From NCBI RefSeq assembly GCF_900156785.1, contig NZ_FTOP01000005.1, positions 1 to 64,000 of the forward strand: a stretch of DNA of 64,000 nt, in the 5' to 3' direction. Below the pieces are notes generated by a model. The model was not told where the DNA came from and did not search any database. It was given only the letters and a program-made list of their open reading frames with translations. The stretch is from Belliella pelovolcani. Its GTDB lineage: Bacteria > Bacteroidota > Bacteroidia > Cytophagales > Cyclobacteriaceae. The position numbers were made by a program, and so were the translations under genes. Positions 46,087-55,450 of the stretch are shown piece after piece; the first letter of the stretch is position 1; each line of letters opens with the position of its first letter.

Positions 46087-46650
46087 TTAATCTACTTTGC
46101 TCAAGTTAGACACTCCGCCTGATACTATAAATTTCATCACGTCGGAGCTGCTTACATTTTTGAGTATGCGGACATTTTGCTTAGGTACCAGGTAGAGGTT
46201 GCCAGAGAAATTATAGCTATGTGGGAAATAAATGGCCACAAGCTCGGTTTCCTCCAATACACTGAGGTCGTCTTGCGTAATGAAGCCCATTCTGGACATT
46301 CCTTCGGAGAGTTTGACGATTACAGGTGTATTGAATTTTTTCTTATCTCCCACAAAAGCCGACATCAAATCCTTGATGCTCGTGTAGAGGATATTGACGA
46401 GGGGGATCTTGAATACCCAGCGCTCAAATAGGTCAAACAGTGGCTTGGTGATGAATAAGCTAGCCAGATAGCCTACAAAAGTGATGAAGCCCAACATGAT
46501 CAAAATCCCGAAACCAGGTACAGGGATTGGGATGATTCCATCCAAGAAATTCAAAATCAAAATGATCACATAGATGGTCAGCGCGATAGGAACCACAAAG
46601 AGTAAACCTCTTAGAAAAAAAGTAATAACCCGCTTGTATGTAAATCTCAT
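46087..46650 (-). CDS. DUF502 family membrane protein
   Basis: 187 residues with two membrane spans (about 10-33 and 45-67) and a soluble C-terminal domain. It shows DUF502 landmarks: RGLLFVVPIALTIYVI, a short LDGIIPIPVPG loop, and LVNILYTSIKDLMSAF then VAIYFPHSYNFSGNLYLVP. Function is unknown. It is encoded on the minus strand, and the (CTTT)n leader of the accessory island begins 42 bp beyond its start. Confidence 0.9.
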   Translation of the reverse strand: MRFTYKRVITFFLRGLLFVVPIALTIYVIILILNFLDGIIPIPVPGFGILIMLGFITFVGYLASLFITKPLFDLFERWVFKIPLVNILYTSIKDLMSAFVGDKKKFNTPVIVKLSEGMSRMGFITQDDLSVLEETELVAIYFPHSYNFSGNLYLVPKQNVRILKNVSSSDVMKFIVSGGVSNLSKVD

Positions 46651-46691
46651 GGTTTATAAGTTTTTGTTTTCACCCCAAATCTAGCTAAAGA

Positions 46692-46798
46692 ATTTTTAAA
46701 ATATTTTAAACTAAAAATTTGCTTCTTTCTTTCTTTCTTTCTTGTTTCCAGCTTTATTAGTGGTCAAACTTTTAGAGTCATTAAAATCATATTTTAAC
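46692..46798 (+). repeat. leader repeat copy 1 with (CTTT)4
   Basis: AT-rich leader starting with the 16-bp palindrome TTTAAAATATTTTAAA, then CTAAAAATTTG, a tetranucleotide run of four CTTT units (about 46725-46740), CAGCTTTATTAGTGGTCAAAC and a 3' ATTTTAAC. It ends 17 bp before the first small-peptide gene. The same leader occurs before two other operons, at 48612 and 51251. Confidence 0.85.
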
Positions 46799-46814
46799 CA
46801 AAACAAAAATTGTT

Positions 46815-47024
46815 ATGAGAAAAAACATTTTAAGTATTTGTTTGTCAGTACTGTTTTTAGTGCCATTCGTGGTTAAGGCAGGGACTTGTAATGTGACTCC
46901 TACAGCAGGGAAATTGTATGAGGCTGGTTTTTGTATTGATACAGTGAATATGTGTTTAAAGCTGCCAGATGGTATTTTGTTTGGAGACTGTTTTATTGAA
47001 GTAGTGCCACAGGTAGGTGATTAA
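46815..47024 (+). CDS. small secreted four-cysteine peptide
   Basis: A 69-residue precursor with a signal peptide (core ILSICLSVLFLVPFVV, cleavage near KAG), leaving about 46 residues with four cysteines (in TCNVT, GFCID, MCLKL, DCFIE). No family is recognised. It sits behind leader copy 1 and is followed by a 28-bp perfect hairpin and a DUF4221-like lipoprotein. A second four-cysteine peptide occurs in the same position of the next module. Disulfides and export are inferred. Confidence 0.75.
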   Translation: MRKNILSICLSVLFLVPFVVKAGTCNVTPTAGKLYEAGFCIDTVNMCLKLPDGILFGDCFIEVVPQVGD

Positions 47025-47033
47025 TTGTGAATT

Positions 47034-47061
47034 AACCCAGAGTTTAATTAAACTCTGGGTT
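47034..47061 (+). promoter_or_regulatory. perfect hairpin between the peptide and lipoprotein genes (module 1)
   Basis: AACCCAGAGTTT is followed without interruption by its own AAACTCTGGGTT arm around AATT. It begins 10 bp after the peptide stop, is followed by TTGATAAATTTG, and ends 15 bp before the lipoprotein start. It could be an attenuator or mRNA-stabilising element that lowers lipoprotein expression relative to the peptide. Confidence 0.75.
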
Positions 47062-47076
47062 TTGATAAATTTGTAT

Positions 47077-48228
47077 ATGAAGAATGCATTAAACTTAATT
47101 TTTGTCATGGTGATATTTTTTTCATGCAAACAAAGCCAAAATTCGGAATCTGGAGTAGTTAATGCCATTTCACTAGTTCCTGTCAAGGAAGTTTCAATAG
47201 ACTTAGGGAGTACTTTTCCTAAACTTCATGGTAACCCAATATTTCTAAATGATGGAGATCGTCCTTACTTTTTTATTCAAAGTATGAAAGGTATTGGGAA
47301 ATTTGATCTTAGAAAAGGCGGGGAAGCTATGGAAATATTGGAGTTAGGTAATATCAATGGTTATGTGACACCTTACGAGTCTGGAAATACATTGATCACA
47401 CCTTTAGAGAAGAATAAGTATTTATCGTATCATAATAATCGAGCGGAACTCTATTTAATAGAGAATAACGAGATCAAATTCAACACTAAAATTTCTAAAT
47501 ATGACGCTGATGCATTTTTCTTGTCAGCAGGGTATTACAGGCAGATGGATTTTAACGAAGGAGTGTTCTATGGATTATATCAACCTTCATACATTTACGG
47601 GGGGCCACCATGGAAGTATGAAAGCTTGACTCAATTAGTGATGTCCTTGGATGTAAATCAGGAAAAAGTAGAAAAGCTATTTCAGTTACCCGAAGCTTAC
47701 CTGATGAAAAATGTTAATGTTTTAGATATGTTAATTAGTTTTGTAAAGCGCCCTGATACTGGTGAATATCTAATTAATTTCCCAATTACTGATGAAATTT
47801 ACATCACGAAAGATTTTAGAGAAGTTGAGCATTTGATCCTTTCACCAAAAAAAGACTTTGTCGACATGTCAAATAGAAAAGGCGAGAGACCAAATGAATG
47901 GAAGAAGGAGTATTACACAGGTAATGCTTTTCAAACCGTCTATTACGATCAATATAGGAAACTGATCATCAGACATTACAGAAAAGCCTTGAGCGAAAAT
48001 GAGTTTGAAAGGATTAGCCAAGATTCCTTTAAAATGCTTGATGATAAGCATGAGAATAGGCTTTTGTTTTCAGACATGAATGGTAATGTACTAGCCGACG
48101 TTGATGTGTCAGCATTTAATTATTGGTACATTCATTTTGCCGAGGAAGGTATGTATATACTCAATGATACCGATATGATAGGAGAGGACAATATGACTTT
48201 TACACTTTTTGAGATTAACCTCAATTAA
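47077..48228 (+). CDS. DUF4221-like six-bladed beta-propeller lipoprotein (module 1)
   Basis: 383 residues from ATG 47077 (MKNALNLIFVMVIFFSC; the open frame upstream to 47017 overlaps the peptide stop and hairpin). Lipobox Cys is at about 17. Beta-strand-rich body with PYFFIQSMKGIGKFDL, YFLSAGYYR-like segments and the DUF4221 landmark FQTVYYDQYRKLIIRHYRKAL. The propeller and the family assignment are by pattern and are moderately sure. A weakly similar second lipoprotein follows in module 2. It has no catalytic motif. Confidence 0.7.
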   Translation: MKNALNLIFVMVIFFSCKQSQNSESGVVNAISLVPVKEVSIDLGSTFPKLHGNPIFLNDGDRPYFFIQSMKGIGKFDLRKGGEAMEILELGNINGYVTPYESGNTLITPLEKNKYLSYHNNRAELYLIENNEIKFNTKISKYDADAFFLSAGYYRQMDFNEGVFYGLYQPSYIYGGPPWKYESLTQLVMSLDVNQEKVEKLFQLPEAYLMKNVNVLDMLISFVKRPDTGEYLINFPITDEIYITKDFREVEHLILSPKKDFVDMSNRKGERPNEWKKEYYTGNAFQTVYYDQYRKLIIRHYRKALSENEFERISQDSFKMLDDKHENRLLFSDMNGNVLADVDVSAFNYWYIHFAEEGMYILNDTDMIGEDNMTFTLFEINLN

Positions 48229-48734
48229 TAAAATCAGACCATTTCTCTGCGTTTCATTGCGCCCTCTGCGGTTTGATATTATTTTCACCGCAGAGAAACA
48301 CAAAGTGCCGCAAAGAAAACATCACCTATCCAAACCTCTCTTAGTCCCATCGGGACGGCCTACATATTAACGGTAGGTTTCAAACTACCGTCCCAGATGA
48401 TGACTAAGACGACCAAGAAGTCCCATCGGGACGAACGGTCTAAATGAAGTAGAGCAACCAATGCACTCAAGCCTATCCCCAATCAAACTGAAATACCTCA
48501 AAGACTTTTAACTTTTTTCAAACTAAAAATATCAAGTACAAACAAATGAAATATCACTTTAAATAGTTTAAATATGTAGATAACTGTCATTTTGTTGTTT
48601 TTATGAGCTTAAATTTTTTAAAATATTTTAAACTAAAAATTTGCTTCTTTCTTTCTTTCTTTCTTGTAAACAGCTTTATTAGTGGACGCATTTTTAAAGT
48701 CATTTAAATCATACTTTAACTTTAAAAAACTAAA
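48229..48734. other. 506-bp gene-free region: palindromic repeats and leader copy 2
   Basis: From left: CTCTGCGGT / ACCGCAGAG inverted repeat (48264-48295) with the dispersed word AGAGAAACACAAAGTGCCGC at 48293. Then two GTCCCATCGGGAC palindromes (48344, 48420) flanking the hairpin CGGTAG / CTACCG (48371-48390). Then the block 48341-48720 that is repeated at 50983-51365. No coding frame is supported. Confidence 0.75.
48612..48720 (+). repeat. leader repeat copy 2 with (CTTT)4
   Basis: Same leader as at 46692 and 51251: palindrome TTTAAAATATTTTAAA, CTAAAAATTTG, four CTTT units (about 48647-48662), CAGCTTTATTAGTGG, then a diverged tail (ACGCATTTTTAAAG) and TTTAAC. It is followed 14 bp later by the second peptide gene. 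Confidence 0.85.
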
Positions 48735-48974
48735 ATGAAAAAAATTATTATCGGATTTGGACTGATATTAGGCGCAATAATTTTTGTTGATTCGCCAAGT
48801 CTTGTTTATGCTAATGATCAGGATGATTCTCTTGAAGAAGGGGGTGGTAATAGTGGATGTAAAACAGGACAAGTGAATGATGCTACTTGTAGATCAGGGT
48901 ATCCAGCCTGTGGATTTATCATGAGCTCTGAACAAGTAAAGGATTGTAATTATTCAAGATCAATTGGTGCATAA
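48735..48974 (+). CDS. small secreted cysteine-containing peptide (module 2)
   Basis: A 79-residue precursor with a signal peptide (core IIIGFGLILGAIIFV, cleavage near VYAND). The mature part has an acidic, Gly-rich start (QDDSLEEGGGNSGC) and four cysteines (GCKTG, TCRSG, ACGFI, DCNYS). Its sequence is unlike the first peptide, but size, cysteine number and context are the same. It ends 8 bp before a hairpin. Confidence 0.75.
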   Translation: MKKIIIGFGLILGAIIFVDSPSLVYANDQDDSLEEGGGNSGCKTGQVNDATCRSGYPACGFIMSSEQVKDCNYSRSIGA

Positions 48975-48981
48975 AATCAAG

Positions 48982-49007
48982 ACCCTTGATGATACTTCAT
49001 CAAGGGT
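48982..49007 (+). promoter_or_regulatory. hairpin between the peptide and lipoprotein genes (module 2)
   Basis: Ten-bp perfect arms ACCCTTGATG / CATCAAGGGT with a 6-nt loop, ending 13 bp before the lipoprotein start. There is no long T tract, so it is more likely an attenuator or stability element than a full terminator. Confidence 0.7.
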
Positions 49008-49020
49008 TAAATTCGGAAAA

Positions 49021-50118
49021 ATGATAAAGTATATAAAATTAATCGGACTTGGCTTCTTGTTTTTTTCTGGTTGCACTTACAAGGAACAAGGAAATTCTTT
49101 AGGCGAATTATTAGAAGTCAATAATATTATTAAATTTGAATTAGACTCTCTAACACCTAATTCATTTCAAGTAATAGAAATTTTAGAACGTAATGAGATT
49201 ACTTATTTTACTTTTTTAAACAATATTAATAATACTATTTACTATTACAATTTTGAAAATCAAGAATTAGTTAAAACCTTAAAGTATGAAATTGGCGGAG
49301 ATGGGTTAAGAAATGGTATAATGTCGTACAACCACCATTCAAATGATTCAATATTGCTTTTTGGCACTGGTTTGTATTCATATTTAACTAATGAAAAAGG
49401 CAAAGTCTTAAAAGACTTTAAACTTATAGATTTAAAATATCAGCAAAGTCCATATGCTTCCATGCAAAGTCCTGTTATTTTAACGGATGGTTACATTTAT
49501 TATAATTCTTTGGTTTGGGGTTGGTACTCTTCAGAATATCAGCCTTTTATGAAGTATGATTTAAGTTCCAGTCAAGTAAATCTATTTGGAGGTTTACCAT
49601 TGACTTATCAGGAAAATGGGGATTGGGGATCTCAAAATTATGATTATGCATATCAAGTATTTGATAAAAAAAATAGAAAAATAATCTATTCATTTCCAGC
49701 AGCAAATACATTGTTTGAATATGGAATAAATAAAAATGAGTTTACTGAAATAAAAGATAGTTATACTTTTGATGAAATCTCTCCACCTTTTAAAGATGAT
49801 AATTATGTATATGATTCTGAGGAATGGCATTTCTCGATGAATAATACTGAAATTTATGGAAGCTTGTTGATTGATTATGATCAATCAAAAGTTTATAGGT
49901 GGTATAAACTTCCAGTAGCTTCTTCAGAGAAAAACCCTAAAAGGGAAACATTATTGCTGGTTTATGATTATCCAAATTTGAAATTTTTAAACTCTTTTCG
50001 ACTTCCAGATTTTAATTATATTACTGAAAACTCATTTATTCAAAAAAATCAAATTTATGTCAGGATTCAAAACAGTATTGAAGATGAAATTGAATTTCAA
50101 AGTTTTAAAATATTCTAA
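49021..50118 (+). CDS. DUF4221-like six-bladed beta-propeller lipoprotein (module 2)
   Basis: 365 residues from ATG 49021 (MIKYIKLIGLGFLFFSGC, lipobox FFSGC; the frame is open to 48964 but that start lies in the peptide gene). Beta-rich with many Tyr/Phe residues and a segment YGSLLIDYDQSKVYRWYKLP resembling the DUF4221 landmark of the first lipoprotein. Overall similarity between the two is low. It ends inside the following thioredoxin-like gene. Very AT-rich, unlike the neighbouring housekeeping genes. Confidence 0.65.
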   Translation: MIKYIKLIGLGFLFFSGCTYKEQGNSLGELLEVNNIIKFELDSLTPNSFQVIEILERNEITYFTFLNNINNTIYYYNFENQELVKTLKYEIGGDGLRNGIMSYNHHSNDSILLFGTGLYSYLTNEKGKVLKDFKLIDLKYQQSPYASMQSPVILTDGYIYYNSLVWGWYSSEYQPFMKYDLSSSQVNLFGGLPLTYQENGDWGSQNYDYAYQVFDKKNRKIIYSFPAANTLFEYGINKNEFTEIKDSYTFDEISPPFKDDNYVYDSEEWHFSMNNTEIYGSLLIDYDQSKVYRWYKLPVASSEKNPKRETLLLVYDYPNLKFLNSFRLPDFNYITENSFIQKNQIYVRIQNSIEDEIEFQSFKIF

Positions 50119-50548
50119 TTTAATTGTTTTCGTTCTGTTTTATATTATGAGCTCTTGTTATACTAATTCTATTAAAACGGAAGAATTTTTAAAGGTGAAA
50201 AATGCAGATAGTGTCCTTGTATTTATTGATTTAGAATCTTGTAGCTCATGTACTGAAAAAATTTCTGAATTATTCAGAGATTACTTTGAATCGGAAAAGT
50301 TTGATTTTGTGTTTATCGAAAATCAAAATCTTAAAGAATTTAAAATCATCTCTGGAGTCAATTTTAAACAACAATTTAATATTCATAAAATCACCAACGA
50401 AAATTATTTAAAATTGAATGGTGGTTATGGCTCCTATTTAGCAATGAACAGTGGTGGCTATATATTAAATCCAAAAAAAGTAACGCCCTCAAATTTTGAT
50501 GGTTTAGTAGAGATTTATTCTTCGTTTCTCTTAGATATGGCTAACTAA
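50084..50548 (+). CDS. thioredoxin-fold-like lipoprotein
   Basis: About 154 residues from ATG 50084, chosen because the upstream Met (50057) lies before a cleaner signal (LIVFVLFYIMSSC). Its start overlaps the lipoprotein gene by 35 bp. A CSSC dithiol (SVLVFIDLESCSSCTEKI) sits at the thioredoxin position, and a TxG/NYLKLNGGYGSYL segment follows. It could keep the disulfides of the secreted cysteine peptide, but that is inference. Confidence 0.65.
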   Translation: MKLNFKVLKYSNLIVFVLFYIMSSCYTNSIKTEEFLKVKNADSVLVFIDLESCSSCTEKISELFRDYFESEKFDFVFIENQNLKEFKIISGVNFKQQFNIHKITNENYLKLNGGYGSYLAMNSGGYILNPKKVTPSNFDGLVEIYSSFLLDMAN

Positions 50549-50650
50549 AAAAACTTGCTCAATTTAATCTAGCCTGCTTTTCCTCATTCTGTCTTTCTTT
50601 ATGTTCTTTACAGTCTAACCGTTTTCATCATCTAACAACCCGAGTCGCCT

Positions 50651-50758
50651 AAGCGTAGATTGCATCTACGCTTATCTATCCATGGAATTTGCAATTCCAC
50701 ATTAAAATAATAATACCCACGCTGGCAAGATATTTGAGGTGTAGTTTGTAACTACACC
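50651..50758. repeat. composite palindromic (REP-like) unit A
   Basis: Three hairpins in fixed order: AGCGTAGAT / ATCTACGCT (50651-50673), TGGAATT / AATTCCA (50683-50699), and GGTGTAGTT / AACTACACC (50738-50758). The same trio surrounds the transposase gene at 54732. Confidence 0.8.
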
Positions 50759-50781
50759 TAGTTGGTTTGTTGTGTGTTTTA

Positions 50782-50882
50782 TCACCCTTCCTTTAAAAGT
50801 CCACTCACCAAACTTTCATGCTCTTCAATCCATCGGTCATATAATCCTCCAGTCCCAGGGCCATTGAAGCCTGTGTGGATAT
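50782..50882 (-). pseudogene. 3' fragment of a TlpA-like gene copied from 55451-55556
   Basis: On the minus strand this codes the last ~33 residues of the thioredoxin-like lipoprotein gene at 55451-56686 (IHTGFNGPGTGGLYDRWIEEH ... then SLVSGLLKEG and a TGA at 50782). The similarity stops abruptly at about 50882. The surrounding palindromic units are the same ones that border the intact gene. It is a decayed duplication by-product with no start codon. Confidence 0.85.
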
Positions 50883-50982
50883 AACTGATTTTGTCATTGC
50901 ATTCCATCTTATTCTTGGTGTTTTTCTTTTTATTAACCGGAGAAGAACAAGTGACCCAAAAAAATGTGTTCCCAAAATCCCT

Positions 50983-51365
50983 CTAAGTCCCATCGGGACG
51001 ACCGACATCCTAACGGTAGGTTTCAACCTACCGACAAAAATCGCTACCACCAACCAAAAGTCCTATCGGGACGAACGGTCTAAATGAAGTAGAGCAACCA
51101 ATGCACTCAAGCCTATCCCCAATCAAACTGAAATACCTCAAAGACTTTCAATTTTTTTCAAACTAAACATATCAAGTACAAACAAATGAAATATCACTTT
51201 AAATAGTATAAATATGTATATAACTGTCATTTTGTTGATTTTATAAGTTTAAATTATTTAAAATATTTTAAACTAAAAATTTGTTTCTTTCTTTCTTTCT
51301 TTCTTTCTTGTTAACAGCTTTATTAGTGGTCAAACTTTTAGAGTCATTAAAAATCATATTTTAAC
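50983..51365 (+). repeat. duplicated ~380-bp block, second copy, ending with leader repeat copy 3 and (CTTT)5
   Basis: Matches 48341-48720 at almost every base for long stretches (for example GAACGGTCTAAATGAAGTAG and the next ~180 bp). The last ~115 bp (51251-51365) are the leader seen at 46692 and 48612, here with five CTTT units (about 51286-51305) and the GGTCAAACTTTTAGAGTC tail of copy 1. It is followed 15 bp later by the 522-residue lipoprotein gene. Confidence 0.85.
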
Positions 51366-51380
51366 ATAATTCAAAAAAAG

Positions 51381-52949
51381 ATGAGAAAATTATTACCAAT
51401 CGCAATTTTTATTGCTGGAATGTTTTTTGGCTGTTCTGCATTTGAAGAAGAATTGTTCAAAGAAAATGACCTTAATAATCATTCGATTGAACAAAAAAAT
51501 AGACTAAAATTCAATTCTTATGATTCATTTACAAATGCAATTTCTGAAATTGGGCAAAACTCTAATGCTAATTCAAAAAGTATTATTGAAAAGTATGCTG
51601 AAAAACCCGAATATTTTAATTCATTAAAAAGTTTAATTGATTCAGAAAGTTTTGAACGTATCAAATTCAGAACGAATTCAGAAAATAATGAAAATCTTAA
51701 TCCTGAACTTTACTCTGAGATGGTTCCTGATTTAGTATTTGCTGAGTTATTAAATGAAAATTTAGAAATTGAAGTTGAAAATGTTATTTTTAAAATAACC
51801 CCTTTTGGGACTTTTTTTTCTCGTACAGAGAATTACGGGAATCTTATTAAAATTGTTGATGACTTTAAAATTTCAAAGCTTGAAGATCTCCGAAATACAA
51901 AAAATACCAATGCAAGAATGGATTTCCAAGAACCTTCACTTTATGAAGATGCTTATCTTTTAGAAGATGATGTTTATCTTTTTGATACGTATTATGATTA
52001 TGATTTTGATGACGAAATTATATTTAATGTGCCTAATGTATCAATAAGTAGTGAGTTTTATCAATTAAACAACTTTTGTGGGGTTTGTGCACCAGTTGTA
52101 AGTTGGGCCCTTCCAGATTCAGAATATAACAAGTTTCAAGAATATAGTTTTGGGAGAAAAACTGATGTTGGGAAATTAATGGAAGGGATTGTTGGAAATA
52201 ACAAAGGATTTACTTTGAATTTTTCAGATAACTATAGGTTAAAAGCTAAATTATATGCTTTTAATTATTGGCTATATCAAAGTGTTGGTGTAAAAGGGAA
52301 AATGCAAAAAAGAGGCTGGACAGGGTTTTGGGCGAAACATAAAGATTCTCGAGCGGATAAACTTGTAGTTGGTTGGGATGTTATGTTATTTAATATTAAT
52401 CATCCAATATCGCTAGATCTTAGATATACTCAGTTACCCTCAAAAAAAATAGCTAAGGAGATTCTTAAATTTTCTAATTTTGATATGGCAGTAGCGTCTT
52501 TATCGGATGCTAGGTTAGTCTTAGGCAATGTTCAGCTGATAGATTATAATGATTTAGAAAAAGCTTTGAATGGTACGGTTAAATTGTCCCTAGCAAAACT
52601 TACAGAAAAGGTTTGGAAAGAGGCTGAAAAGTCTTTTGCAACTGCTTCTTATGAAATAACTCAAGAAAGAATAAAAACCTACAGAAAAATCTTTCCAAAC
52701 AAGACAAAAATGATGTTAAGTAGATTTGAAGCAGTATTGAATAACTCTAATGAAATAAATCTGAACATTGATAGACAGTTTAGAGTAAGTTATAACAACC
52801 AATCAGGAGATGGCTTCTATGAAAATTTAATTATTCCTACTCTAGGACAAAAAAAGATGTACGATATTGAAGGAGCATCAGTTTATGCAGCAGCTCAATT
52901 TAGAAATCAAATAAAAGGTATTAGAATAACCAAGGAAATAAATGATTAG
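51381..52949 (+). CDS. large hypothetical lipoprotein (module 3)
   Basis: 522 residues with lipobox AGMFFGC. The first ~200 residues are acidic and helical. A motif NNFCGVCAPVVSWAL (about 235-249) contains the only close cysteine pair (CxxC), followed by an aromatic-rich region (YAFNYWLYQSVG, GWTGFWAKHK). The C-terminal part is Lys-rich with RIKTYRKIFPNKTKM. The family is not recognised, and a papain-like active site is possible only by loose pattern. It is the first gene after the third (CTTT)n leader and overlaps the next by 8 bp. Confidence 0.6.
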   Translation: MRKLLPIAIFIAGMFFGCSAFEEELFKENDLNNHSIEQKNRLKFNSYDSFTNAISEIGQNSNANSKSIIEKYAEKPEYFNSLKSLIDSESFERIKFRTNSENNENLNPELYSEMVPDLVFAELLNENLEIEVENVIFKITPFGTFFSRTENYGNLIKIVDDFKISKLEDLRNTKNTNARMDFQEPSLYEDAYLLEDDVYLFDTYYDYDFDDEIIFNVPNVSISSEFYQLNNFCGVCAPVVSWALPDSEYNKFQEYSFGRKTDVGKLMEGIVGNNKGFTLNFSDNYRLKAKLYAFNYWLYQSVGVKGKMQKRGWTGFWAKHKDSRADKLVVGWDVMLFNINHPISLDLRYTQLPSKKIAKEILKFSNFDMAVASLSDARLVLGNVQLIDYNDLEKALNGTVKLSLAKLTEKVWKEAEKSFATASYEITQERIKTYRKIFPNKTKMMLSRFEAVLNNSNEINLNIDRQFRVSYNNQSGDGFYENLIIPTLGQKKMYDIEGASVYAAAQFRNQIKGIRITKEIND

Positions 52950-53481
52950 ATCTATTGTTTTTATTTGTTTTTTATTTTGTTTCATTGGTAACACCTTTGG
53001 ACAAACAGAAAATGTTATTAGAATAAACTTCTTAAATCCAAGCCTTACAATAGAAAGGGTTCTAAGTCCAAAAACAACTTTTGAGGCTGGTGTTGGTTTT
53101 GGGTATAATGGTTCGTATCCTGATTTGGCATTTGCCTCAGAAAGTGGGATTCAATATATATTTGCAGGGTTTGTGGATCTTCAGAGCAGATATTATTATA
53201 ACCTGGAAAAACGACAAAATAAGGGCAAAAATATAGGGTCAAATTCCGGAAATTTCTTTGCCTTGAGAATGCTTTATACAGGCCCAGATGTTGCAAGTAA
53301 TTTTATTCGATTTGATAATAATTCATTTGCTGTAGGACCTACTTGGGGGATTCAAAGAGCTTATGGGAAGTTTAATTTAGCTTATAGTATGGGTCCAATA
53401 TATTATTTTAACACTAGTGGAAGTCACAATTGGTTTCCTCTGATATTGGAAATAAATTTTGGGTATAATCTTGGACGATAA
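52942..53481 (+). CDS. outer-membrane beta-barrel protein
   Basis: 179 residues with a signal peptide (FICFLFCFIGNTFGQ) and barrel-like strands (FEAGVGFGYNG, FAGFVDLQSRYYY, FNLAYSMGPIYYF), ending in an aromatic C-terminal strand (LEINFGYNLG). No family is recognised beyond a small OMP barrel. It overlaps the 522-residue lipoprotein by 8 bp, so the pair is coupled, and it is followed by a hairpin and a further lipoprotein. Confidence 0.7.
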   Translation: MIRSIVFICFLFCFIGNTFGQTENVIRINFLNPSLTIERVLSPKTTFEAGVGFGYNGSYPDLAFASESGIQYIFAGFVDLQSRYYYNLEKRQNKGKNIGSNSGNFFALRMLYTGPDVASNFIRFDNNSFAVGPTWGIQRAYGKFNLAYSMGPIYYFNTSGSHNWFPLILEINFGYNLGR

Positions 53482-53488
53482 ATTCTTA

Positions 53489-53520
53489 AATAGGGAGGCA
53501 AAAAACCTCCCTATTTTATT
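53489..53520 (+). terminator. hairpin after the barrel gene, just before the next lipoprotein
   Basis: Arms AATAGGGAGG / CCTCCCTATT with a 7-nt loop and a TTATT tail, ending 9 bp before the next ATG. Its place is the same as the hairpins of modules 1 and 2, so attenuation is as likely as full termination. Confidence 0.72.
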
Positions 53521-53529
53521 TGAAAATCT

Positions 53530-54207
53530 ATGAAGAATATTACTAGAGTATTAATCGTTTTAACAATTTTTATTTGCTCCTGTCAAGCTACCAAAACTTC
53601 AGTGATTCAGTATTGTAAAATTTGTTTGGATGTAGAAGACGGGATTATAGTGGATGATTTGAATAGTCCTTTGCTTTCTGAAAGGAGGAATAATGATCTT
53701 AGAGTTCTTATCATCGCTATGCTTCAATCTGAAGGTATGATCAATGTTTATGATAAATACGAGCTGGATTATGAATTTTTAACCAATAATATCAGAGGAA
53801 TCGAAAGTACAGAAGATAGAGAGCAACTCAATAGAAAACTGAATATCAAATATATTCTTAAGCCCACTGTTTTGAATTTGAGAGAGGCAGAAGGATATGA
53901 TGTGATTTATCCAAGTGAGTCAATTTACCCTATTCCTAGATCGCCTCAACTAAACAGATCACTGCTAGAATTTGAGTTGATAGAGACGGCTACCGAAGAA
54001 GTGGTTTATAAAGTAGCTTTTAATAACAGTGACAAGGAATATAGCAAAAACAACGAGGATGATATTGAATTTTTCAACTTTGGGTCATCTTTTAGGACAT
54101 TGTGGAGCGGTGCTAAAAAAGGAAGTAAATTTACAGTTGCTGATTGTACTTGCCCAAAAGGAAAGTACTTAAAGCGAAGAAAATTTTGGGAGAAAATTGG
54201 GTTTTGA
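53530..54207 (+). CDS. hypothetical lipoprotein
   Basis: 225 residues with lipobox ICSC (Cys 18). The mature part is mixed, with a cluster of cysteines near the start (YCKIC) and another near the end (ADCTCPKG), and a basic C-terminus (LKRRKFWEKIGF). No family is recognised. It starts right after the hairpin of the barrel gene, and is the last gene before the transposase region. Confidence 0.65.
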   Translation: MKNITRVLIVLTIFICSCQATKTSVIQYCKICLDVEDGIIVDDLNSPLLSERRNNDLRVLIIAMLQSEGMINVYDKYELDYEFLTNNIRGIESTEDREQLNRKLNIKYILKPTVLNLREAEGYDVIYPSESIYPIPRSPQLNRSLLEFELIETATEEVVYKVAFNNSDKEYSKNNEDDIEFFNFGSSFRTLWSGAKKGSKFTVADCTCPKGKYLKRRKFWEKIGF

Positions 54208-54731
54208 TATAAACAATCAGAATAGATTGGTTTTCTCTTTAGCGTCTTAAAGGGTCCACTTTAGTTTTCCTTTTAGCTATAGAGAAACACAAAGTGCCGC
54301 GCCCTCTGCGGTTTGACCATTATTTTGACTGTGTCGCCTAGGCGTAGATTGCATCTATGCTTTCATATCCATGGAATTTGCAATTCCACTTTCAAATAAA
54401 AGAACCCAAGCAGTCAAAATATTTAGAGTGTAGTTGCAAACTACACCTAGTCGGTTAGTTTTGTTTTTAAGGTTTTCTCAAAAAATGGGATGATCCCTAA
54501 GCGTAGATTGCATCTACGCTTTCATATCCATGGAATTTGTAATTCCACTTTCAAATAAAATGACTCACGAAGTCAAGATATTTAGGGTGTAGTTGCAAAC
54601 AACACCCAGTCGGTTAGTAGTTGATTTTAAGGATTTTTCAAAGGATATGAGTGTGCCCTAAGCGTAGATTGCATCTACGCTTTCATTTCCATTGAACTTG
54701 CAATTCCAATCCAAGAGGATTATATTTAATA
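54208..54731. repeat. 524-bp region of composite palindromic units B, C and D
   Basis: It contains the AGAGAAACACAAAGTGCCGC word (54281-54300) and then three units. Unit B has hairpins at 54340-54362, 54372-54388 and 54428-54446. Unit C has them at 54499-54521, 54531-54547 and 54587-54605. Unit D has only the first two hairpins (54660-54682, and a degraded one at 54692-54708). No coding frame. Confidence 0.8.
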
Positions 54732-55277
54732 ATGGGTGATGCTTTTCAAATTAGAGATCAGGAAATGCCTTATTTTTTGACATTCCAAGTCGTAGGATGG
54801 GCAGATGTTTTTACCAGAAAGAGGTATCGAGATTTTATTTTAGAAAATTTTGCGTATTGTAGAAAATCAAAAGGGTTGTATCTATTTGGTTATGTAATTA
54901 TGAGCAATCATATTCATTTGTTGGTACAACAAAAAGATGGTAGGTTGTCAGATTGGGTTAGGGATTTCAAAAAGTTCACAAGTAAGAAATTGATAAAAAT
55001 GATTTCAGAGAACCCTGATGAAAGGAGAAAAGAGTGGCTTCAAATGATTTTTGAATATCACGGTAAGTTTAATAAGAGGAATAATGATATTCAGTTCTGG
55101 ACTCACGAAAACCATGCTGTTGAAATGTATAATGTCGGCATGATTGAAAGTAGAATGAAGTACATTCATGAAAACCCTGTTAGAGCTGCTATTGTTGAAA
55201 AACCCGAGGATTATTTGTACTCCAGCGCAAGGGATTATTCTGGATTAAAGGGATTGATCGATTTAGATTATTGGTGA
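54732..55277 (+). CDS. REP-associated tyrosine transposase (RAYT, IS200/IS605-like Y1)
   Basis: 181 residues of the Y1/HUH superfamily. The metal-binding HUH motif is H60-I-H62 in YVIMSNHIHLLVQ. The conserved C-terminal ESRMKYIHENPVRAAIV and PEDYLYSSARDY fit the TnpA-REP group. Such single-domain enzymes nick REP hairpins and are usually surrounded by them, as here (units D and E flank it). No ISL/ISR ends typical of autonomous IS200 elements were seen. Its residues look intact. Confidence 0.9.
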   Translation: MGDAFQIRDQEMPYFLTFQVVGWADVFTRKRYRDFILENFAYCRKSKGLYLFGYVIMSNHIHLLVQQKDGRLSDWVRDFKKFTSKKLIKMISENPDERRKEWLQMIFEYHGKFNKRNNDIQFWTHENHAVEMYNVGMIESRMKYIHENPVRAAIVEKPEDYLYSSARDYSGLKGLIDLDYW

Positions 55278-55291
55278 TTTAGAATACCCCT

Positions 55292-55398
55292 AAGCGTAGA
55301 TTGCATCTACGCTTTCATATCTATGGAATTTGTAATTCCACTTTCAAATAAAATGACTCACGAAGTCAAGCTATTTAGGGTGTAGTTGCAAACAATAC
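55292..55398. repeat. composite palindromic unit E downstream of the transposase
   Basis: Hairpins at 55292-55314, 55324-55340 and 55380-55398. The ~110-bp unit is nearly the same as unit C, including the spacer with ATGACTCACGAAGTCAAG. Units C/D upstream and E downstream frame the transposase gene. Confidence 0.82.
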
Positions 55399-55450
55399 CC
55401 AGTAGTTTATTGGTTACAAACAACACCCAGTCGGTATGTTTTGTGTTTTA

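Follow-up and report, generated by a model that had tools for sequence, protein, structure and literature searches.

Why does one short leader, built around a run of CTTT units, stand before three genes for secreted proteins in Belliella pelovolcani, and what would such a run do there? The question is raised by the window analyzed here, a 64-kb stretch of the genome (contig NZ_FTOP01000005.1, positions 1 to 64,000 of the forward strand). An earlier note on this DNA had described the leader and had proposed that slippage in the run switches the genes behind it on or off. After comparing the leader with its relatives in other genomes, we hold with moderate confidence that it is a cis-regulatory cassette whose slip-prone tract would tune expression in a graded manner, and which would also act as a seam for recombination.

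The leader and its distribution

The three copies lie where the earlier note had placed them and end 16, 14 and 15 bp before the ATG codons at 46815, 48735 and 51381. Their parts are as follows:

46692..46798, + strand: leader copy 1 (covariance (RNA) model E 8.2e-12, the model being built partly from B. pelovolcani copies)
46709..46722, + strand: core AACTAAAAATTTGC of copy 1
46725..46740, + strand: (CTTT)4 tract of copy 1
46751..46778, + strand: hairpin GCUUUA-uu-AGU...ACU-uu-UAGAGU of copy 1
48612..48720, + strand: leader copy 2 (sequence and covariance-model match)
48631..48644, + strand: core of copy 2
48647..48662, + strand: (CTTT)4 tract of copy 2
48673..48700, + strand: hairpin of copy 2
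51251..51365, + strand: leader copy 3 (sequence and covariance-model match)
51271..51284, + strand: core AACTAAAAATTTGT of copy 3
51287..51306, + strand: (CTTT)5 tract of copy 3
51317..51344, + strand: hairpin of copy 3

Strict counting returns the 4, 4 and 5 units reported earlier, and TTTAAAATATTTTAAA and CTAAAAATTTG, which had been read as a palindrome, occur in each of the three window leaders. A 26-mer covering the junction of core and tract has three matches in the window at up to three mismatches, a number reached in 0 of 100 dinucleotide shuffles. The three leader tracts are the only perfect tetranucleotide arrays of at least four units in the window, and throughout the 4.1-Mb genome all four exact CTTT arrays of at least four units lie inside leaders of this kind, as does one of the ten exact three-unit arrays. 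The other exact (CTTT)3 sites were rejected as hidden leaders, nine of the ten sites having no YTTGY core. At one of these nine (L118, G000:C28:44512) AACTAAAATCTACTAT is followed by (CTTT)3 and then by a 74-aa open reading frame (ORF); it is possibly a very diverged leader and was excluded from the copy set.

A whole-genome search, which the earlier note had called for, made three an undercount: B. pelovolcani has seven copies, the three in the window (C27) and those at C30:26483, C30:29436, C30:103928 and C30:356882, the last of which is divergent and has CTTA units. In Belliella together with a few related genomes the total is 47 copies, namely 43 (50 regular-expression matches minus 7 that were spurious or duplicate) plus L129, L141, L195 and L209. 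By genome there are 7 in G000 (the window's own), 8 in G001, 5 in G002, 6 each in G003 and G005, 5 in G007, 4 in G116, and 1 each in G006, G008, G041, G090 and two Algoriphagus species. When a 141-bp leader piece was compared with 39 genomes (its own and 38 relatives), ten had matches at E<=0.001, and the long matches fell in the same genus, plus one in a second genus (g2). The pattern of core plus tract, applied to one genome per species for 84,980 species (a scan that may omit records very near the window's own), found 15 stretches, 13 in Belliella and 2 in Algoriphagus; among viral contigs it gave 0 matches, and a viral origin was rejected. A covariance model from 26 copies had matches at E<=0.001 in 8 of 196 family genomes and 4 of 84 genera, a survey in which several matches arise by construction, G003 and G005 lie outside the sample, and the filters are strict; the model missed G041, although G041 holds a pattern-defined copy. 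The leader is most likely a lineage-specific regulatory element.

A profile of 43 copies (weighted, about 31 effective) reads AAWWTTTTnAACTAAAAAYTTGYTTCTTTCTTT, that is, an AT-rich conserved core, AAWWTTTTnAACTAAAAAYTTGY, running into the tract. Beyond the core, the 60 bases upstream hold no strong motif in this profile, only weak A/T preferences. The best-conserved part is AACTAAAAAYTTGY, and the proposal that the palindrome is a general regulator site did not survive the comparison: the AT-palindrome belongs to one subfamily, in which it is the local form of the AAWWTTTT part. It was likewise rejected as an operator common to all copies, as broad conservation before the core is limited to AAWWTTTT. 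Searched without the tract in eight Belliella genomes, the 14-base core has 31 exact matches in seven and none in G004, versus 14 for a reversed control. Thirty exact cores were obtained as loci: two or more [CA]TT[TA] tetramers come after 28 of them and a degenerate tract after a 29th, while the last match is unrelated. Core and tract thus go together.

The claim that a set of secreted-protein genes has this leader in common is upheld: in 38 of the 43 copies, an ORF that opens with ATG, runs for 40 codons or more and has a secreted-looking product begins 75–157 bases from the core start (signal sequences, lipoboxes and cysteines were assigned by eye). These ORFs comprise 32 that encode peptides of 62–107 aa with a signal sequence and Cys and 6 larger, lipoprotein-like ones (L001, L032, L051, L066, L073 and L109, the last with a DUF4221 gene, E 5e-24). 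As to the remaining five, L043, L092 and a second L106 copy lack such an ORF, L044 has only an ORF at 197 bases, and behind L057 lies an ISL3 transposase gene. By eye, the peptide genes at L044 and L043 look frameshifted near their starts. L057 (G003:C1:1771419) is a leader remnant with ATTT units adjoining the ISL3 gene, and its locus in G003 corresponds to the window's thioredoxin/DUF502 interval.

Slippage and mosaicism

We paired orthologues behind leaders at a protein identity of at least 50% and compared their unit numbers. These differ in 8 of 12 pairs and in 7 of 10 gene families, with 3/4/6, 4/2, 2/7, 9/2, 7/2, 4/4/2 and 4/6 units in the differing families and 5/5, 5/5 and 3/3 in the others (L022/L141, a 5/5 pair, becomes 6/5 by a looser counting rule). 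Between orthologues, the stretch that separates tract and ATG changes in length by 0–3 nt. The case is clearest in L058/L067, from two Belliella species: the encoded 107-aa proteins are identical and a single substitution is found across the 240 ORF bases compared, and there are 3 units in one and 4 in the other with the sequence between tract and ATG unchanged. In L004/L041 the numbers are 2 and 7, with 75 nt from tract to ATG on both sides. Units also differ in their letters: L006 and L129 have (CTTA)6CTTT and (CTTT)2, L060 has CTAT units within its tract, and the variants seen are CTTA, CTAT and ATTT. Such whole-unit change, together with the spread of variant units, is what replication slippage yields, and the earlier claim of a slip-prone tract stands as a statement about differences between species.

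Unit numbers run from 1 to 9 with a mode of 4 (15 of 43 copies, loose tetramer count), and the genes behind both extremes, 1 and 9, are intact. In 28 of 32 script-located copies the core start lies 30, 34, 38, 42, 46, 50, 54 or 62 bases from the hairpin start, hence in steps of four; L006, L022, L057 and L070 fall outside these steps. Of the four features that define phase-variable simple sequence repeat loci, two are found here, a perfect repeat far longer than expected by chance and whole-unit variation among close relatives (between species). Frame switching was rejected, since the tract ends 40–75 nt before the ATG in 22 paired copies and is therefore non-coding. Judged by sequence, phase variation by the tract is plausible, and because the tract is non-coding and intact genes stand behind 1 to 9 units, graded tuning appears likelier than an on/off switch.

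The copies are also mosaic, as had been noted. Copies 2 and 3 are alike upstream, and the tail TTAGTGGTCAAACTTTTAGAGTCATTAAAA is present in copies 1 and 3 and not in copy 2; the upstream part of copy 3 is closest to copy 2 and its tail to L032 of G003. Two blocks of the window concern us here:

48338..48720, + strand: duplicated upstream region, 88.7% identical to 50981-51365 (0.38 kb)
51233..54468, + strand: 3.2-kb block, 98.9% identical to G003, with an edge immediately before leader 3

The 3.2-kb block has its second edge within a repeat next to a Y1 transposase gene, and the genes near the window locus that are common to G003 outside the block are 72–88% identical. The block is a probable recent cassette transfer. 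A 4.3-kb block on C30, 97.2% identical to G003, stops some 0.1 kb short of a leader core, on its upstream side, and a 1.8-kb block common to G003 and G005 (94.1%) starts inside the L047 tract. Within the latter block, L047 and L055 differ by 5 substitutions in 225 ORF bases and by 11 in 74 bases of leader tail, while the L055 tail is 97–98% identical to those of two other leaders in its own genome, which places a junction in the leader. Collectively, these alignments suggest that leaders are seams of homologous recombination.

Upstream of leaders 2 and 3, paired short inverted repeats GTCCCATCGGGAC (one variant GTCCTATCGGGAC) occur at 48344, 48420, 50987 and 51060, with a repeat GGTAGGTTTCAA...CTACCG between them; they look like REP-type elements. 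The Y1-type (IS200-like, possibly RAYT) transposase gene at 54732-55277 is accompanied by repeats at 50644-50882, 54337-54708 and 55288-55403. Several repeats of 50–210 bp flank it and recur in other Belliella genomes.

Hairpin, promoter and candidate mechanisms

Most copies are able to form the hairpin ACUUUA-uu-AGUR-nnnn-YACU-uu-UAAAGU 3′ of the tract. In a structure-blind alignment of 36 of the 43 copies (L006, L057, L067, L070, L073, L109 and the second L106 copy were dropped), 81.5% of cells are paired versus 74.4% after shuffling, 18 cells are doubly changed versus a shuffled mean of 5.0, and 8 of the 10 pairs have changes on both sides. On each of the five measures the observed value exceeds that of all 500 shuffles, and shifting the pairing partners drops pairing to 26–53%. 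Rfam returned nothing above the gathering score for 46500-51500, its sole match at E<=1 lying far below it.

The promoter type expected in this phylum is that of sigma-ABfr, with a −7 box TAnnTTTG and TTTG at −33 (PMC7366714). Of 25 other window genes, 10 have TAnnTTTG upstream, where 2.8 are expected after shuffling; of 43 leaders, 3 contain it, where 8.5 are expected, and its positions there are scattered, so that downstream of the tract no −33/−7 core promoter with a fixed place was found. The box is thus enriched before other window genes and rarer than chance in leaders, and this scarcity makes it probable that the leaders depend on an activator or on a different sigma factor. By the UP consensus given in PMC4081817, the core looks like an UP element with TTG behind it. 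It was rejected as a sigma-ABfr −7 box, as it reads AAAAYTTG before the final Y, no conserved TTG lies at the −33 distance and TAnnTTTG is scarce. We also rejected YTTG as a −33 box with the tract as spacer: the hairpin arm holds the sole candidate −7 box, TATTAGTG, and a tract of 4 units puts it about 33 bp from YTTG. Most copies have too long a spacing, and about 21 bp is reached in the shortest copies only (hand count on sequences). An RbpB-type RNA-binding reading of the pyrimidine tract was kept as a lead only, with 'UUUC' and 'pyrimidine' absent from the main text of PMC11697453.

In the mechanism we favor, the core would be an alternative promoter or activator site, not of the housekeeping sigma-ABfr type, and the tract behind it would set the distance to the start codon and, in most copies, to a hairpin in the 5′ untranslated region. 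Through replication slippage the tract would gain or lose whole 4-bp units, with the length from tract end to start codon kept, and the consequence would most likely be a rheostat-like tuning of each locus independently. The genes so tuned would encode the secreted, Cys-containing peptide family and, at certain loci, lipoproteins of the DUF4221 type. Being repeated and conserved, the leader would also serve as a homologous-recombination seam through which gene cassettes swap between loci and species. What the sequences show is the anatomy, the distribution, the coupling of core and tract, slippage on an evolutionary scale, the mosaicism and, in part, the hairpin; the position of the promoter, the effect on expression and the rate of switching are what we infer here.

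Several results weigh against this proposal. Unit number is kept in 4 of the 12 orthologue pairs, two of the differing pairs were matched at a protein identity of 51–53%, and slippage is observed between species, not within a population. Sliding the hairpin partners by −2 still gives 17 doubly changed cells, though with 51.6% paired, and RNAalifold, given 22 hairpins, returned no consensus structure. The mean folding z-score after the tract is −1.02 (n=43) versus −0.70 (sd 1.54, n=45) for equally placed segments before the ATGs of other genes in the window, coding overlaps included, and folding energy was discarded as proof of the hairpin, being too weak against other upstream regions. The hairpin block is absent from at least L006, L129, L070 and L109; the hairpin is thus not essential, and we take it to be real but accessory. 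Finally, the −33/−7 combination precedes 1 of 25 other window genes (0.33 expected), which leaves the −7 box as the basis of the promoter comparison.

Three other explanations were considered. The tract might be a spacer inside a promoter, or between activator and promoter, such that some unit numbers permit expression and others do not, as in nadA. The 4-bp steps between two conserved elements, the UP-like core with its TTG (PMC4081817) and the nadA precedent (PMC2791445) would fit such an on/off switch; with YTTG at −33, however, the distance to TATTAGTG at 4 units would leave most copies off, TAnnTTTG has no fixed place downstream of the tract, and copies without the hairpin retain core and tract. 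We consider this switch unlikely. A passive spacer, or a stretch that binds protein or RNA, whose unit number has no regulatory effect and whose conservation reflects recent descent and recombination, is a possibility we take seriously without thinking it probable. It agrees with the wide range of unit numbers around a mode of 4 and with the homogenized leader tails within G005, but the tract is kept in 29 of 30 cores and also occurs with the variant units CTTA, CTAT and ATTT, which speaks against plain neutral decay.

That the leader is itself a mobile or site-specific recombination element, such as a transposon end or an attC-like hairpin, we regard as very improbable. The hairpin, the mosaic copies, the cassette edges at leaders and the nearby Y1 gene would suit it. 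However, 38 of 43 copies stand in the same orientation at a limited distance before the ATG of a peptide or lipoprotein-like gene, the repeats adjoining the Y1 gene are different sequences, and the edges of shared blocks vary from case to case, as in homologous recombination.

Genes behind the leaders and known systems

The genes behind the window leaders are as follows:

46815..47024, + strand: gene for a peptide of 69 aa, with signal sequence and Cys assigned by eye; no Pfam or NCBIfam match
47077..48228, + strand: lipoprotein of 383 aa with an FFSCKQ lipobox, assigned by eye; Pfam gave no match
48735..48974, + strand: gene for a peptide of 79 aa, with signal sequence and Cys assigned by eye; no Pfam or NCBIfam match
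49021..50118, + strand: 365-aa lipoprotein, putative DUF4221-type beta-propeller; BLASTP E 2e-9 to a DUF4221 (PF13970) protein
50057..50548, + strand: small SCSSC protein, thioredoxin-like by eye; start codon uncertain; no significant family
51381..52949, + strand: 522-aa lipoprotein-like gene directly behind copy 3; no Pfam match

Each of the peptide genes at 46815 and 48735 is followed by a lipoprotein gene, and on C30 a DUF4221 protein gene follows the peptide gene of copy L004. The 365-aa product has no direct Pfam match to PF13970 and is probably a remote DUF4221 relative; its predicted model, of low confidence (pLDDT 56.7), has the DUF4221 structure 3s9j as best PDB match (E 5.5e-12). 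The 383-aa lipoprotein shows weak similarity to a DUF4221 protein (E 0.006, a single comparison). Elsewhere, substitutions number 2 in 74 tail bases versus 44 in 201 bases of peptide gene for L005 and L042, and 8 in 74 versus 43 in 223 for L003 and L034. In these two pairs the leader tail is kept better than the peptide gene, as if the mature peptides diversify.

By analogy, the tract would act like the tetranucleotide tracts of nadA and uspA2. In Neisseria meningitidis nadA, a TAAA promoter tract has been studied with a mapped promoter, NadR operators, IHF and measured transcripts (PMC2791445). Like the Belliella leader, it is a non-coding tetranucleotide tract before a surface-protein gene that changes the spacing of flanking elements in 4-bp steps; nadA, however, is one gene, whereas the Belliella leader occurs at many loci and has a core before the tract and usually a hairpin after it. 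At Moraxella catarrhalis uspA2 the AGAT tract, likewise tetranucleotide and heteropolymeric, precedes a surface-protein gene (132 bp upstream of it), and within one strain the transcript level varies up to 3.37-fold with the number of units; the tract belongs to one gene, and no multi-locus leader or hairpin is described in the available part of that paper (PMC7302503). In Helicobacter pylori sabA a T-tract with UP-like elements acts as a rheostat, and similarly placed T- or A-tracts are reported at other genes (PMC4081817). The likeness is a tract near UP-like A/T boxes with, in sabA, a graded output, but the sabA tract is mononucleotide and adjoins the −35 box of a sigma70 promoter. Literature searches on Belliella and Cyclobacteriaceae leaders and on Bacteroidetes repeats gave nothing on this leader among the matches listed, which, with subscription journals outside the coverage, is weak evidence of absence.

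These precedents concern tracts in locus-specific surroundings of host-associated pathogens, while here, in an environmental genus of Bacteroidota, one leader with its tract recurs within a genome, at as many as eight detected loci (in G001). A bolder version, possible but in our view doubtful, is that the 110-bp leader works as a plug-in unit, in which a non-housekeeping promoter and a hypermutable dial are followed by an RNA hairpin and the homology captures foreign cassettes of secreted peptides; if this were true, every newly captured cassette would gain its own, independently drifting dial. Because the secreted peptides behind the leader form a coherent set, both they and their regulator become searchable, and near-identical orthologues with different unit numbers offer naturally occurring variants with which to ask whether expression is tuned by a 5′ tetranucleotide tract.

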